DNA of 6,074 nucleotides, taken from NCBI GenBank assembly GCA_021820165.1, contig JAKADW010000138.1, positions 1-6,074 of the forward strand. The letters run 5' to 3'. The stretch is from Bacillota bacterium (GTDB taxonomy: Bacteria; Bacillota_E; Sulfobacillia; Sulfobacillales; Sulfobacillaceae). The translations under genes and the position numbers were made by a program. Below are positions 1-6,074 of this stretch, piece after piece (positions within the stretch are counted from its first letter, which is position 1; every line of letters starts with the position of its first letter). The notes under the pieces are model-generated. The model did not search any database. It worked only from the letters and a program-made list of their open reading frames with translations, and was not told the DNA's origin.

Positions 1-394
1 CGCTGTACATCTCGTGGACATCAACTTTGAGCCCAGGATATCGCTGCACCAGCCCCCGGTACAAGTCAGGGAAACGGTGCGCGGAAGCCGTGGGCACAAT
101 GCCCATCTTAATCTCCCCCTGAATCATGCTGCGATGCAGACCATCAGAGAAGGCGTCAACTTCGGCCACAATGTGACGAGCTCGTTCGACCAACATCAAC
201 GCCTCCGGGCGAACCCGCGTGCCTCGGGCATCGCGATCAAAGATGCGCTGACCTACCTGTTCTTCCAGCAAACGCACTTGGCGGCTTAAGGCCGGTTGAG
301 TCATCTCAAGAAATCCAGCCGCCTGGGAGAGAGAGCCATACTCCGCGATAGCCACCAAGATGCGCAACTGGGTGAGATTCACTCCGTTCTCCAT
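1..394 (-). CDS. LysR-family transcriptional regulator, N-terminal part (cut by window edge)
   Basis: DNA-binding regulator; 131 residues are visible of the roughly 300 usual for the family, and the C-terminal effector domain lies outside the window. The winged helix-turn-helix is clear: LTQLRILVAIAEYGSLSQAA at residues 7-26, then TQPALSRQVRLLEEQVGQ (32-49) and IFDRDARGTRVRPEA, the usual LysR wing. The start of the effector-binding domain is also visible from about residue 90 (GEIKMGIVPTASAHRFPDLY), with the typical spacing after the linker helix. I chose the ATG at 394 because a GGGG at 402-405 sits 7 nt upstream; an in-frame ATG at 400 is the alternative. It is transcribed divergently from an efflux pump 104 bp away, the classic arrangement in which a LysR protein controls its neighbour and itself. 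The effector is unknown. A CbbR-type role (carbon fixation) cannot be told from this part. Confidence 0.93.
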   Translation of the reverse strand, partial: MENGVNLTQLRILVAIAEYGSLSQAAGFLEMTQPALSRQVRLLEEQVGQRIFDRDARGTRVRPEALMLVERARHIVAEVDAFSDGLHRSMIQGEIKMGIVPTASAHRFPDLYRGLVQRYPGLKVDVHEMYS

Positions 395-423
395 CGACAT
401 GCCCCATAACGAAATTTTATAGC
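394..423 (+). promoter_or_regulatory. Possible promoter of the efflux-pump gene
   Basis: TCGACA (394-399, one mismatch to TTGACA) and TATAGC (418-423) are separated by 18 bp. The T-N11-A dyad would lie in the spacer, which fits regulation by the divergent LysR protein. The -10 match is only 4 of 6, so this is tentative. Confidence 0.25.
407..419. promoter_or_regulatory. Candidate LysR-box (T-N11-A) operator
   Basis: T407 and A419 are separated by 11 bases inside the dyad ATAA-N7-TTAT (406-420), which is the T-N11-A form recognised by LysR-type regulators. It lies between the divergent regulator and efflux-pump genes and almost touches the regulator start, so binding here could repress the regulator and act on the pump. 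AT-rich dyads of this size arise by chance, hence moderate confidence. Confidence 0.4.
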
Positions 424-425
424 CA

Positions 426-434
426 ATTATACCA
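426..434 (-). promoter_or_regulatory. Extended -10 promoter element for the LysR gene
   Basis: On the minus strand TGGTATAAT reads as a perfect extended -10 (TG-N-TATAAT), 31 bp upstream of the ATG at 394. No good -35 hexamer is seen at the usual distance, as is common for extended -10 promoters. Confidence 0.5.
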
Positions 435-498
435 GGAAAGCGCTTGGGAGGGCCGCGTTTTCGATGCACCATAGAGGAGAAAGGAACGGGATCCGAGG

Positions 499-1959
499 AT
501 GACCGCAAATTATAAATGGTGGGCCCTCTCGGCCACCAGCTTAGGGATGTTAATGGCCGTGCTGAATGGCACCACGCTCTTGATTGCGTTGCCGACCTTA
601 GTGCGCGCCTTGCACATGAGCGCGTTTCTCTCCATTTGGGTGCTGTTGTCATACATGGTGGTTCAGACGGCGCTGGTGCTAACGGTCGGACGACTGTCCG
701 ACATCTTTGGTCGAAAGCGCCTCTACGTGATGGGTTTTGCCCTCTTTACCGTCGCCGCGCTGGCCGCAGGTCTGGCCCCGAACGGCGTCGCCTTACTGGT
801 TATTCGTGCGGTGCAAGCCATCGGTGGTGCCCTGGTCATGGGCAACGCCACCGCCATTGTCAGCGATGCCTTCCCGCGTCAACAGTTGGGCTTAGCGCTT
901 GGCATCAATTCTATTGTCATTGCCTTAGGGCAGGTGCTAGGACCCATTTTGGGCGGCCTCCTGATTACCTTATTGCCGTGGCATTGGGTATTCTGGTTTA
1001 ACGTCCCGGTGGGCATTTTGGGTACGATTTGGGCCTCCATTCAACTGAAGGATGTGGTAGACCCCACCCGTGAGCCCAAAATCGACTATGTTGGCAACGC
1101 CGCCTACATGCTGGGGCTGACTAGCCTTCTTGTAGGTGTCACCGCGGGCGGTGTAGACGGATGGCAAAGTCCCTTGAGCCTCGGGCCCATCATCTTAGGC
1201 CTTGTGGCCTTTGTCGCCTTCTATACGGCGGAAAAGCGCGCCGCCTACCCTCTCTTCAGCCTGTCGTTATTTAAAAATCGGCTGTTTGCCATGGGCAATG
1301 TCGCCAACCTCCTTATCGCCATGGGGCGGGGCGCTATCGTGCTGCTATTTGTTTTCTATTTCCAAGGCGGGCGTGGTTACTCCCCGCTTAAAGCCGGTAT
1401 CTTGGTTATCCCTTTAGCGATCGCGATGGGCGTCACCGCTCCCCTCTCGGGATGGATTGCCGATCGTCTGGGGGCACGGGGACCGGCCACTCTCGGAGCC
1501 CTAATGGTCGGTGCTGGTCTTTTGGGATTTGCCGCCACCATTACGCTAACCAGCAGCTACGCCATTATTGCAAGCTGGATGGTTGTGGTGGGCATCGGCA
1601 ACGGGCTCTTTAACTCGCCCAACACCAGTTCGATCATGAATGCCGTATCGGTGCATCAACGGGGCGTGGCCGCCGGCACCCGTACCATGTTGCTCAACAC
1701 GGGGAATGTCTTTTCGATCGCGTTTGTGTTGGCTCTCATCACATCCAAACTACCGCCGACCGTCACCATGGCTATCCTCTCCGGCACCACCGCGTCGTTG
1801 TCTCCAGGTCAGTTGGGGAGTTTTGCGGACGTGTTGCGCTTGGCCTTTTTCATCATGGCCATGGTTGCCTTGGCTGCCGCCTTGCTCTCCTGGCTTCGTG
1901 GGAGCGCCCAAGCTAAGCCTGAGGTGAAGTCTTTAGACCGCGTTCCGCGAGTCTCTTAA
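499..1959 (+). CDS. MFS transporter, DHA2 (EmrB/QacA-like) family, 14 TM
   Basis: Proton-driven exporter of the inner membrane, 486 residues, the normal length for 14-helix DHA2 pumps. Visible landmarks: N-terminal KWWALSATSLGMLMAVLNGT into TM1 with IALPTL (29-34); motif A GRLSDIFGRKRLY (64-76); motif B R103-AVQAIGGA; motif C GQVLGPILGG (144-153); WHWVFWFNVPVG (161-172); the PLFSLSLFKNRLF junction (251-263); YFQGGRGYSPLKAG (287-300); and FNSPNTSSIMNAV with QRGVAAGTR (371-395). TM1 carries Asn23 where most DHA2 pumps have Asp (LDxT). The ATG at 499 is supported by the canonical N-terminus; GGGA (488-491) lies 7 nt upstream, and a purine-rich AGGAGAAAGGA stretch lies further up. The gene is divergent from a LysR regulator that probably controls it. 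Substrate cannot be told from sequence; drug or organic-acid efflux are both possible. Confidence 0.95.
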   Translation: MTANYKWWALSATSLGMLMAVLNGTTLLIALPTLVRALHMSAFLSIWVLLSYMVVQTALVLTVGRLSDIFGRKRLYVMGFALFTVAALAAGLAPNGVALLVIRAVQAIGGALVMGNATAIVSDAFPRQQLGLALGINSIVIALGQVLGPILGGLLITLLPWHWVFWFNVPVGILGTIWASIQLKDVVDPTREPKIDYVGNAAYMLGLTSLLVGVTAGGVDGWQSPLSLGPIILGLVAFVAFYTAEKRAAYPLFSLSLFKNRLFAMGNVANLLIAMGRGAIVLLFVFYFQGGRGYSPLKAGILVIPLAIAMGVTAPLSGWIADRLGARGPATLGALMVGAGLLGFAATITLTSSYAIIASWMVVVGIGNGLFNSPNTSSIMNAVSVHQRGVAAGTRTMLLNTGNVFSIAFVLALITSKLPPTVTMAILSGTTASLSPGQLGSFADVLRLAFFIMAMVALAAALLSWLRGSAQAKPEVKSLDRVPRVS

Positions 1960-2422: not shown

Positions 2423-3775
2423 TTACGGAATCTTGGATCCAATGGCTCGCGCCGCCACCTGCACCGGATCCCACACATCGGAAAAGGGCGGGGCATAGGC
2501 CAGATCCAGATCCAGCAAATCATTCACCGACAACCCGTTGTGAAGCGCCGTAGCCAGGGTGTCGATGCGGATGGCACTGCCTTGACCGCCACTAATTTGT
2601 CCTCCCAAAAGTCGACCGCTCCCAGCCTCGGCTATGAGCTTGACCCGGATAGGCGCGACGTCTGGAAAGTAGCTAAGCTTGGTTTCGGTTTCGATGACCT
2701 GGCTTACAACAGAGAATCCCGCTTCTTCCGCCTCCTTGGTGGAAAGACCGGTTCGCGCCACTTCCCGGTCGCCCACTTGGGTAATGGCCGTGCCCAGCAC
2801 GCCCGCAAACTGCTCTTTTCCACCCGCCAAATTCAATCCCGCAATGCGCCCTTGCTTATTAGCCACGGTCGCAAGCGGCACATACACGGGCCGCTGGGAG
2901 ACCCGATGAAACGACTCCACGACATCGCCGGCGGCCCAAACGTGGGGAGTCAAGGTTCGCATGTCCGGGCCCACCTGAATGGCCCCTTTTACGCCCAGCG
3001 CCATACCGGCATCTTGGGCAAGCGTACTATTCGGCCGTACCCCAAGCCCCAGCACCAATAGATCGGCCCGTATTTCGTAGCCACCCGCCACAACACCTGT
3101 CACCCGGCCGTTCTGGGAAAGAACCGCCTCCAGACGGGTCTTCAGTCTAACCTCAACCCCAAGCCCATGGAGGGTTGATTCTAAATCCTGTGCCAGATCC
3201 TCATCCATACTGGCCATAAGTTGGTCCGCCTGCTCAATTAAGGTGACGGGGATGCCCCAACGAGATAAATTGTCTGCCATTTCGAGGCCAATGTAGCCCC
3301 CGCCGGCAATCACGGCGCGCTCAGGCCTTCGCTCTTCGATCCAGGTACGGATGACCTCGCCGTCCTTCAACGTTTTCACGGAAAAGACGCCCTCACTGCG
3401 GATATTATCCAGTTCGGGCCAAATAGGGTCGGAGCCGGTAGCGATGAGAAGCTGGTCATAGGGTTCTCGACGATGATGCCCATCGCTGTCGACAACCTCT
3501 ATGCGTTGGTTGACTGGGTCAATCGCCAAGACCTCATGTCCCACCCACACGCGAATTTGGGACTTCGACCAAAATTGGTCGGGAGTTCGAGCCACTAGTT
3601 GATCCACATTGTCGACAAACTTGCCGACGTAATAAGGGACGCTTCAAGCAGAATAGGAGGTGACCAGTCCTTTCTCAAAAGCCACCACCTCTAAAGAGGG
3701 ATCCCGGCGCTTGGCTTGCGATGCTGCGCTCATGCCGGCCCCGTCTCCCCCGATGACCACGATACGTTGAGCCAT
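2423..3775 (-). CDS. CoA-disulfide reductase / NADH oxidase-type flavoprotein with in-frame TGA at the catalytic Cys codon
   Basis: Class III pyridine nucleotide-disulfide oxidoreductase, cytosolic, expected to use FAD and NAD(P)H to reduce CoA disulfide (or polysulfide/oxygen) through one redox-active residue. Reading through the TGA at codon 44 gives 450 residues, the family's usual length. Start: ATG at 3775, with GGAGG 6 nt upstream. Seen in order: FAD Rossmann VVIGGDGAGMSAAS (6-19); active-site loop TSYSA-TGA-SVPYYVG (39-51), where relatives have SYSACGIPYYVGG; LLIATGSDP (109-117); NAD Rossmann AGGGYIGLE (157-165), with Glu at the end of VTLIE favouring NADH; FAD motif WAAGDVVE (280-287); dimerisation domain with LDLAYAPPFSDVWDP (423-437) carrying the conserved Tyr427. 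No cysteine is encoded anywhere else. Apart from the TGA the frame is undamaged. Either codon 44 is selenocysteine, or the gene is freshly inactivated, or the base is wrong. CoA-disulfide reductase and NADH oxidase cannot be told apart here. No rhodanese domain is fused. Confidence 0.85.
3608..3633 (-). promoter_or_regulatory. SECIS-like hairpin just after the TGA
   Basis: In the mRNA, GTCGGCA (3628-3622) pairs with TGTCGAC (3617-3611) to give 7 bp including one G-U wobble, capped by the loop AGUU (3621-3618). ATT (3633-3631) can also pair with AAT (3610-3608) across a 2-nt AC bulge. There are 22 nt between the TGA and the loop, and G is the second loop base; both fit the loose consensus for bacterial SECIS elements (upper stem in the coding region shortly after UGA, a G among the first two loop bases). 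Caution: GTCGGC and GTCGAC simply encode Val-Gly and Val-Asp, which are common in this family, so the pairing may be incidental. Confidence 0.4.
3644..3646 (-). other. In-frame TGA at the active-site cysteine: candidate selenocysteine codon
   Basis: Codon 44 of the disulfide reductase is TGA (TCA on the plus strand). It aligns with the single redox Cys of the family (Cys43 in the well-studied staphylococcal CoA-disulfide reductase). The flanks are unmistakable: S-Y-S-A before, P-Y-Y-V-G after. The next two residues are Ser-Val where relatives have Gly-Ile. No start codon with a ribosome binding site follows, so the downstream 394 codons would not be translated without reading through. Selenocysteine insertion is the inference; a nonsense mutation is the alternative. 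Confidence 0.5.
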
Positions 3776-3786
3776 AATCTTCCTCC
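3776..3786 (-). promoter_or_regulatory. Ribosome binding site fixing the reductase start
   Basis: GGAGG (3786-3782 on the minus strand) stands 6 nt before the ATG at 3775. This rules out a longer N-terminus from the open frame upstream (to 3859), whose residues before MAQRIVV have no family resemblance. The 5-bp hairpin CCCAC-AAG-GTGGG (3798-3786) abuts and just overlaps this site. Confidence 0.8.
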
Positions 3787-3805
3787 CCACCTTGTGGGCG
3801 TGAAT

Positions 3806-3871: not shown

Positions 3872-3886
3872 CGTATCGATTATACG
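3872..3886. promoter_or_regulatory. Second dyad, CGTAT-N5-ATACG, next to the permease ribosome binding site
   Basis: CGTAT (3872-3876) and ATACG (3882-3886) are perfectly inverted and end directly against the AGGAGG of the permease gene. ATTACGTATCGAT here resembles ATTTCGTATGAT at 3825-3835, so the two dyads may be copies of one operator. As RNA it could also form a small hairpin beside the ribosome binding site. Confidence 0.35.
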
Positions 3887-3902
3887 AGGAGGCCTTCTCT
3901 TG
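3887..3902 (+). promoter_or_regulatory. Strong ribosome binding site selecting a TTG start
   Basis: AGGAGG (3887-3892) is followed by 7 nt and then TTG at 3900. The spacing is ideal and no ATG or GTG in frame is as well placed, so the permease starts at TTG. Confidence 0.85.
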
Positions 3903-5252
3903 GCAAGTTCTGACGGAACCGACCGCATTCCCACCGGTATTCTCGGAGAAGTCGAAACAGTGGGTATTCTCCCCGTGCCTGACGAGCAACGGACCATGTC
4001 GGCAGGAAAAATGACCGTGGTTTGGCTGATGGCGTCGGCCTCTGCCACCACTCCACTCATCGGGGCGCTTTTGTTCCACTTTGGTGTGTGGGACATGGTT
4101 TTCGCCATCGTCTTGAGTTGGCTTATCGGGTTGGTGCCTGCAGGACTCTTTTCCGAAATGGGCCGCGAAGTGCCCTTGACGGGGCTGATTGTGGCCCGAA
4201 AGACCTATGGTACCACCGGTGCCTTTTTGTTCTCCGTGTTGTTCACCTTCGTGAACATGGGCTGGTTTGGTCTGAACACCGCCGTAGCCGGGCAGACTTT
4301 GAGCGCGATTACCCATATGTCGGGAACGCTGTGGTTTTGGATTATCGGGATCGTTCAAGTCATCCTGGTGCTATTCGGAATGAAGTGGCTGGAATACTTC
4401 TATCGCTATACCTCCGTCATTCTTCTAGTCGCCTATGGAGTCCTCGCCTATCTCCTCTTCTCTCGCTACCATGTCGCAATGCCGCACGCCACGGCCCCCA
4501 TGGCCTGGGGCACGGCCATCACCACGGTGGTGACGTTCTCCATTTTGGCTTGGACCTATAAAGTGTCGACTGTCTCTCGATTTGCAAGACCCCTATCCGA
4601 GTCGAAGAGCCGAACGGCCTTCTTCCTGGCACCGTCGGTGGGCATCATGGTCTCCGTCTTGGTCATGGGACTGATGGGCATGTATTCGCAAAAAGCGACC
4701 GACGATTGGAACCTCGCGCTCTTGGGATCTCACGCGCCTCTCTGGGGCGTCATCGCAGCTGTCGGCGTGGCCCTGGCCATTATCCACACCAACGCGATGA
4801 ACCTCTATCCATCTACCGTAGATCTGTTAGTGGCACTGAATACGCTCCGGAAACCGAGCCGTTGGGAGCAACCCGTGGCGACCATCATTTTGGGCATCCT
4901 CGGTACCGTACTAGCCATTCTCGGCATTCTCAATCATGTCCAAGGATTCCTAAACGTCATTGGCGACGTGATTATCCCCTTTACCTTCATCATGCTGGTA
5001 GACTGGGTGTGGGTGCAGAAAAAGCGTACGCCGGCCCGCGCCTTTTTCGAGCGCCCGACCACCGTCCGGGGCTGGTGGAGTTGGTCCGCCTTCATCACCT
5101 TTGCCATCGGTATGGCGATTTCCATCTGGGGAGCCGATTGGCTACCGGGGCTCTTTACCACCGTGCTGCCACTACCGGTCGTCGGTGGGCTCGTCTCGGC
5201 CCTTCTCTACGCCCTTTGGACAGTCTCCCGAAGAAAGCCCCATGCCGCCTGA
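3900..5252 (+). CDS. NCS1-family nucleobase:cation symporter (purine/cytosine permease-like)
   Basis: Inner-membrane uptake carrier for purines, pyrimidines or related compounds (allantoin, hydantoin, thiamine precursors) driven by H+ or Na+. It has 450 residues, typical of the family, and about 12 hydrophobic segments. Landmarks: cytoplasmic N-terminus with the NCS1 entry motif PVPDEQRTMSAGKMTVVW (25-42); GLVPAGLFSEMGREVPLTG (77-95) followed by ARKTYGTTGAFL (99-110), the family's G-x-x-x-R-x-S/T-F/Y-G stretch; GWFGLNTAVAG (121-131) with the Trp and Asn that line the substrate site; HTNAMNLYPSTVDLL (296-310); and FLNVIGDVIIPFTFIMLVDW (350-369). The start is TTG, set by AGGAGG 7 nt upstream. 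The gene is divergent from the disulfide reductase and ends in its own terminator, so it is probably monocistronic. No catabolic gene is next to it to name the substrate. Confidence 0.92.
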   Translation: MASSDGTDRIPTGILGEVETVGILPVPDEQRTMSAGKMTVVWLMASASATTPLIGALLFHFGVWDMVFAIVLSWLIGLVPAGLFSEMGREVPLTGLIVARKTYGTTGAFLFSVLFTFVNMGWFGLNTAVAGQTLSAITHMSGTLWFWIIGIVQVILVLFGMKWLEYFYRYTSVILLVAYGVLAYLLFSRYHVAMPHATAPMAWGTAITTVVTFSILAWTYKVSTVSRFARPLSESKSRTAFFLAPSVGIMVSVLVMGLMGMYSQKATDDWNLALLGSHAPLWGVIAAVGVALAIIHTNAMNLYPSTVDLLVALNTLRKPSRWEQPVATIILGILGTVLAILGILNHVQGFLNVIGDVIIPFTFIMLVDWVWVQKKRTPARAFFERPTTVRGWWSWSAFITFAIGMAISIWGADWLPGLFTTVLPLPVVGGLVSALLYALWTVSRRKPHAA

Positions 5253-5264
5253 ACGCCCGATGTT

Positions 5265-5295
5265 AAGGCCAGAACAACGACGTTCTGGCCTTTTT
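5265..5295 (+). terminator. Intrinsic terminator of the permease gene
   Basis: AAGGCCAGAAC (5265-5275) pairs perfectly with GTTCTGGCC plus TT (5282-5292) around a 6-nt loop and runs into TTTTT (5291-5295). It lies 12 nt after the stop codon. The T-run is only on the plus side, so it serves the permease and not the facing dabA. Confidence 0.92.
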
Positions 5296-5470: not shown

Positions 5471-6074
5471 TTAGCGAGCTAGAACGCGCCAACCTCCACC
5501 GCGCTCACGGCGGTGAAGAATCCCCTGATCATCCATCTGAAAAAGATGTAGCCATTGGTTTTCAACCAGGTCCTCCACTGAAGCATGCTGCTCGATGACA
5601 TGATCGATGGCCTCTTGTGGGGCGGCGATGACCACCGTGAGGCGCACCGGTTCGTGTCGCCAGACTTTCCCATCGTGCAGCGATTGCTCGGCGAGCCCCA
5701 CGCGAAGGTCGCCGCCATTACCTTCCAGAACCCCGATGGATCCCCCCACCACATTGTGCAGCACCTTATTGCCACTACCGAATCGACCGGGGTCGACCAC
5801 CGATCCGTAATATTGCATGTTGATCCAATGCGCCACCATGAGGGGCGCCGTCATGATAAGTTCCAGGGTGGCAAACTCGGGATCCCGGTGCCAATCATAC
5901 TCATGTAAAAATGCGCGCCCGTCCAAGGAGCAATGGGCGGTGACAGCGCGGGGAGCGGCGATAAAGGCGGCATTGCCGGCCAACCCCCACTCGGGCCGCA
6001 CCTCTGCCCAATCCCGCCCGCGCCGGCGAAAGGCGAGAGGAAGTTTTGACTCCGTAAGCCTATCCATCCCAAAC
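5471..6074 (-). CDS. dabA: DabA / DUF2309 (YbcC-like) inorganic-carbon transporter subunit, C-terminal part (cut by window edge)
   Basis: C-terminal 200 residues of a protein usually 800 or more long; the frame stays open to the window edge, so the Met at 6067 is internal. DabA is the zinc-containing, carbonic anhydrase-like subunit that works with the membrane subunit DabB to bring in and trap CO2/bicarbonate. Conserved family blocks seen: WAEVRPEWGLAGNAAFIAAP, RAFLHEYDW, then LELIMTAPLMVAHWINMQYY, then GRFGSGNKVLHNVVGG and IGVLEGNGGDLRVGL with EQSLHDG (about 5680-5785), and ENQWLHLFQMDD near the end. The zinc ligands of the family lie further upstream, outside the window, so activity cannot be judged. 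The gene faces the NCS1 permease. A dabB-like gene would be expected beyond the right edge. It suggests an autotrophic host but does not prove it. Confidence 0.93.
   Translation of the reverse strand, partial: FGMDRLTESKLPLAFRRRGRDWAEVRPEWGLAGNAAFIAAPRAVTAHCSLDGRAFLHEYDWHRDPEFATLELIMTAPLMVAHWINMQYYGSVVDPGRFGSGNKVLHNVVGGSIGVLEGNGGDLRVGLAEQSLHDGKVWRHEPVRLTVVIAAPQEAIDHVIEQHASVEDLVENQWLHLFQMDDQGILHRRERGGGWRVLAR

Follow-up and report, generated by a model that had tools for sequence, protein, structure and literature searches.

Does the stop codon inside the minus-strand gene at positions 3775-2423 of the window (the whole 6,074-nucleotide stretch of Sulfobacillaceae DNA analysed here) interrupt the protein, or is it read as an amino acid? 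Direct translation gives 450 residues and a final TAA, with a sole internal stop, a TGA at codon 44 (positions 3646-3644) in the context SYSA-TGA-SVPYYVG, so that the frame is open just as the initial annotation had described it. The start ATG (3775-3773) follows GGGGAGGAAG, a strong ribosome-binding sequence. Further upstream, the region holds three promoter-pattern sites for 1.3 expected, and the candidate promoter of this gene is a pattern match only. We conclude that the gene very probably encodes a selenoprotein, with selenocysteine (Sec) inserted at UGA44, and that the product is an FAD enzyme of 450 residues from the CoA-disulfide reductase (CoADR) family. Sec insertion is far better supported than the identity of the substrate. 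The features of the window are collected in Table 1.

Table 1. Features of the window, with positions, strand and the basis of each assignment.
Feature	Positions	Strand	Basis
LysR-type regulator, cut by window end	2..397	-	HTH_1 and LysR_substrate; 82% identical in L001
DHA2-type MFS transporter	499..1959	+	TIGR00711 239.9 bits (cut-off 230.2); 84% identical in L001
Very probable selenocysteine-containing CoA-disulfide reductase / NADH oxidase-family flavoenzyme	2423..3775	-	450 aa, UGA44 as Sec, ATG start, TAA stop; translation, TIGR03385 score, Pyr_redox_2 and Pyr_redox_dim, alignment over almost the full length with CoADR/Nox chains of known structure
SECIS-like hairpin GUCGGCA-AGUU-UGUCGAC, beginning 15 nt after UGA	3611..3628	-	Predicted fold and conservation
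UGA codon 44, in frame, where the family has its redox cysteine	3644..3646	-	Homologue column and Cys of PDB chains
Ribosome-binding region (GGGGAGGAAG) 5' of ATG	3776..3800	-	Read directly
Possible sigma-70 type promoter TTGCCA-16-TATAAT of the selenoprotein gene	3879..3906	-	11/12 consensus match
Divergent NCS1-type permease	3900..5252	+	PF02133; TIGR00800 94.2 bits (cut-off 353.1, not reached); 89% identical in L001
C-terminal part of DabA (inorganic carbon transporter subunit), cut by window end	5471-6067	-	PF10070

With U in place of the TGA, the highest-scoring NCBIfam model is the CoA-disulfide reductase TIGR03385, with 419.8 bits, below its cut-off of 578.8; the H2O-forming NADH oxidase model NF046103 gives 224.9 bits, below its curated equivalog cut-off of 600. 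Pfam finds Pyr_redox_2, Pyr_redox and Pyr_redox_dim, and no domain past Pyr_redox_dim in the 450 residues. The oxidoreductase and dimerisation domains are thus present, together with a single redox Cys/Sec in an S-x-x-C/U-x-x-P motif. Judged by its sequence, the protein is a member of the CoADR / NADH oxidase family in the wide sense, with scores under both equivalog cut-offs. Longer homologues of about 550-570 residues, found in related genomes, share the same flavoprotein core but carry a C-terminal extension, presumably a rhodanese domain.

Solved relatives place codon 44 within this fold. The structures 6ruz (NADH oxidase), 3cgb, 6pfz (NoxA-3), and 5l1n and 4fx9 (CoADR) align over nearly the whole length of the window protein, with the redox position and two tyrosine positions in register. 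In all five printed alignments (two of which concern near-identical chains) the position of residue 44 is occupied by Cys, where the window gene has UGA, and Tyr369 and Tyr427 each align with Tyr. The initial annotation had argued that the flanks SYSA and PYYVG fix codon 44 as the redox Cys, and these alignments agree with it, as do the homologues with TGC or TGT. On the strength of the same alignments the two tyrosines are likely active-site partners, a role that we assume for them. The best PDB match is named NADH oxidase, and such names therefore do not fix the substrate of the window enzyme; the CoADR 1yqz and the CoA-persulfide reductase 8a56 are also in the table of PDB matches.

Is the TGA peculiar to this contig? 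A scan of genome contigs returned six loci (L001-L006). TGA stands at the redox column in S. harzensis (L001, 71% identity) and in a Bacillota MAG (L003, 57%), TGC in another MAG (L002, 59%), and TGT or TGC in the three loci from other phyla (L004-L006). We searched 101 genomes, comprising S. harzensis and relatives: 62 gave a match and, among the matches listed, 11 have an in-frame stop, each a single TGA. The window, 30 loci from that search and L004-L006 make up 34 distinct sequences, whose redox column holds 12 TGA, 18 TGC and 4 TGT; none of the 34 has an in-frame stop elsewhere. As all 12 in-frame stops share one column, chance explains TGA44 poorly, which bears out the earlier point that a random nonsense mutation would rarely fall on this very codon. 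We then have 12 TGA against 22 Cys codons at this position, the TGA/TGC exchange that had been sought in homologues; close sisters of the TGA genes carry TGC. It extends to the 398 genomes of the phylum that we searched, of which 191 matched: 28 new loci were obtained, three of them duplicates, and the rest gave one further TGA gene, L107. The wider set of 59 distinct rows has 13 TGA against 46 Cys codons (28 TGC, 18 TGT). Since loci are best matches per search, and the 398-genome search scored four candidates per genome, these counts may miss some Sec forms. A second candidate from the phylum, L103 of genome G232, was rejected as a TGA gene: its TGA is codon 445, near the end of the frame, and its redox codon is TGT.

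That a Cys codon suffered a nonsense mutation, or that the sequence simply has a wrong base, would be a more ordinary account of the TGA, which lies one base from both TGC and TGT. This account has to face the TGA at the same column in eleven other genomes, in frames that hold no further stops. It would also predict a relaxation of selection downstream of the TGA, and the dN/dS comparison proposed by the initial annotation gives purifying values with no relaxation. Counted by the simple Nei-Gojobori method, pairs of TGA genes have an omega of 0.08-0.19 downstream of the TGA. Where dS stays below 1, which is so for three of the TGA pairs, the values are 0.13, 0.13 and 0.16, and the Cys pair L028/L029 has 0.16. 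For the window and S. harzensis the value after the TGA is 0.095, with dS near saturation; the pair of the window with L024 yielded no computable omega. In the pairs measured, the part before the TGA is conserved as much as the rest or more. The CoADR gene is nevertheless less constrained than its permease and MFS neighbours, which speaks to some extent for decay: in the comparison with S. harzensis its omega is 0.080, against 0.043 for the permease and 0.061 for the MFS gene, and it is 71% identical (window 2423-3775 against L001 5001-6350), the neighbours 82-89%. Even so it is clearly under purifying selection. With the hairpin described below also kept, we regard a pseudogene or a sequencing error as highly improbable.

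Reading the TGA as Sec calls for a SECIS element, and a predicted SECIS hairpin does lie inside the coding sequence directly 3' of the UGA. All three pieces that were folded contain it; their energies are -10.8 to -12.7 kcal/mol, and the z-scores of -1.7 to -2.1 are modest. A hairpin is predicted at the same place in each of the 12 TGA genes, all of which have six of the seven stem pairs in standard form, and it is absent or weak in the Cys sisters L024, L028 and L029. Codons +6, +7 and +10 are GTC, GGC and GTC in all 12 TGA genes and codon +11 is GAC in 11 of them, while the 22 Cys genes vary at these codons. Furthermore, synonymous-site conservation is highest in the gene at the hairpin: among 244 windows of seven codons, the eight best conserved all overlap it, with start offsets of 0 to +7. 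If a single member of the close trio L025-L027 is retained, leaving 10 genes, offsets 0 to +10 account for the starts of the eleven best-ranked windows out of 287 (the best twelve were listed). Covariation among the 12 TGA genes did not rise above shuffles, because the stem pairs hardly vary and five of the seven never do. The distant gene L107 has its own, different hairpin, with a GGA loop. Bacterial SECIS elements usually have a G as the first or second base of the loop and a distance of 16-37 nt from UGA to loop, and both the AGUU loop of the window and the GGA loop of L107 fit this rule. No Rfam family reached its gathering threshold anywhere in the window.

The presence of a selenocysteine machinery is the second issue, and here the machinery of the window organism is inferred from that of its kin. 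The check proposed by the initial annotation is positive in the genomes of the nearest relatives, with gaps for SelA and tRNA-Sec in some. All 11 TGA genomes from the first set have SelB and SelD matches above cut-off. For SelA this holds in nine, the exceptions being G024 and G037, and tRNA-Sec scores more than 70 bits in seven, not in G006, G025, G027 or G037. G037 thus has SelB and SelD, but neither SelA above cut-off nor a strong tRNA-Sec. These absences are to be read with the facts that the completeness of the TGA genomes is not given and that the group-wide tRNA-Sec search had stricter filters. All four components are above cut-off in S. harzensis (G001), in G002 and in G003; the full selA, selB, selD and tRNA-Sec set is found in the TGA genomes G001 and G003, and part of it in others. 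The SelA match in G018 contains one TAA. SelA passes its cut-off in 76 of the 101 genomes of the group at large, including the Cys-sister genomes G002, G013 and G021, so that its presence is a matter of consistency and not proof. The Cys sister G013 has SelA and SelB; neither SelD nor tRNA-Sec passes the thresholds applied there. RF01852 is matched in 81 of 101 genomes; many of these matches score close to 50 bits and could be tRNAs of another kind. Presence of the machinery fails to separate TGA from Cys genomes. In the genome of L107 (G286), SelA and tRNA-Sec lie about 4 kb apart on one contig.

The selD genes of these bacteria have a stop codon of their own. An in-frame TGA was present in all 12 genomes where selD was found (13 searched), one each in the relatives' copies L056, L057 and L058, and SelD is probably itself a selenoprotein in the kin.

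Could the UGA be read as something other than Sec, with a suppressor tRNA inserting Cys or Trp, for example, or through general stop readthrough? The redox column of the 120 database proteins listed holds 116 C, three entries cut short and one W, in P0093; this Trp is the one sign of another reading, and may reflect TGA translated with a non-standard code. Against it, tRNA-Sec has the anticodon TCA in all six loci examined (TGA genomes G001, G003, G019, G024 and G042, and Cys sister G002), SelA, SelB and SelD are present in the kin, and the conserved hairpin accompanies the TGA and not the Cys codons. Moreover, the permease gene of the window itself terminates at TGA (5250-5252; its S. harzensis counterpart ends in TAA), which argues against a reassignment of UGA throughout this DNA. 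We give such a reading very little credence.

The three database entries cut short suggest another arrangement, a short peptide up to the TGA and a separate protein of about 390 residues from a later GTG (3607). The listed copy of the window protein, P0001 (390 aa), begins after the UGA, and its relatives P0002 (389 aa, 87% identity) and P0003 (404 aa, 68%) likewise begin after the TGA. A product starting so late would lose the redox residue and the GGDGAG motif of residues 9-14, which we take to be part of the FAD-binding region, and in the pairs measured the stretch upstream of the TGA shows conservation equal to or higher than that of the remainder. Of the explanations weighed here, two products seem to us the least credible. 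Pseudogene, sequencing error, other reading of UGA and split gene are accordingly all rejected on the grounds given. The TGA column, the hairpin, the selection and the machinery in kin support the original proposal of Sec at codon 44. In the three truncated entries, that of the window protein and those of its two closest listed relatives, annotation hides the active site.

How did Sec and Cys come to share this column? The TGA genes near the window group with three Cys genes in a single clade of 15 rows, supported at 100/100, and the Sec/Cys label changes at least three times in the tree of 34 rows and at least four times in that of 59. L107 is placed in a different, distant clade among Cys genes, which means that Sec was either gained twice, or kept in two places and often lost. 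The residue after Sec is Ser in eight of the 12 TGA genes (USVP in the window) and Gly in the other four.

The mechanism we propose for the Sec enzyme builds on the Cys chemistry of the CoADR family. SelB with Sec-tRNA(Sec) would recognise the hairpin after UGA44, allowing the ribosome to insert Sec, as the hairpin and the machinery in kin suggest. By analogy with the Cys enzymes, NAD(P)H would then reduce FAD, and FAD the selenium of Sec44. The Sec44 selenolate would attack a CoA disulfide, a CoA persulfide or a similar low-molecular-weight sulfur substrate, and the resulting Se-S intermediate would be opened by the next hydride.

The initial annotation had left it uncertain whether Sec forms of this family were already described. 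They are: a Sec 'NADH oxidase' was listed for Geobacter metallireducens in 2006 (PMC1794560), one Sec NADH oxidase sequence is recorded in ocean samples (PMC2398784), and a 'FAD-dependent oxidoreductase (CoA-disulfide reductase, NADH oxidase)' is among predicted selenoproteins (PMC9312934). A 2026 review assigns the Sec form to TIGR03385 with the motif UGxP (PMC13188914). This known Sec FAD-dependent oxidoreductase, exemplified by WP_011365774.1 (apparently a Geobacter protein, going by the reference cited for it), shares the TIGR03385 family with the window protein, and its UGxP fits the cysteine of CGxP; the likeness is one of motif. The two differ in that the window has USVP and belongs to another lineage, Sulfobacillus and relatives. 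The Sec proteins reported for Sulfobacillus in the portions covered, formate dehydrogenase and the peroxiredoxin PrxU (PMC4378227, PMC7409299), belong to families other than CoADR. The same portions of the open-licence Sulfobacillus selenoprotein literature name no CoADR, and the term CoA-disulfide is absent from PMC7409299. The selenoprotein family is thus already known, and the window gene is a new member of it, from the Sulfobacillus lineage.

What is added is a well-supported clade of Sec-containing CoADR-family enzymes with three Cys sister genes, plus one TGA gene (L107) in a distant clade. Such Sec/Cys sister pairs are suited to testing the benefit of selenium in a flavoprotein disulfide reductase. 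We offer as a speculation, itself rather doubtful, that the Sec enzyme of the Sulfobacillus group may be a CoA-persulfide/polysulfide reductase in which selenium would serve ionisation and survival of over-oxidation, close species switching between Sec and Cys at one codon. If this were true, the switching would offer a natural experiment into the reasons for retaining selenium.

S. harzensis has the permease, CoADR, MFS and LysR genes in the same order and orientation as the window. Beside the CoADR genes of the further relatives compared, whose loci mostly span only about 1.5 kb per side, no match to these neighbours was found. Two ORFs in or overlapping 1960-2422 have no NCBIfam match. Read directly, the DNA shows a G+C-rich and nearly perfect inverted repeat (1964-2001), without a T run, immediately past the MFS gene, and another just past the permease gene (5266-5295), followed by TTTTT and terminator-like, which the terminator scan did not list. 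Near the CoADR gene of the relative L003, about 0.9 kb away, lies a SAM riboswitch (427-529, minus strand).
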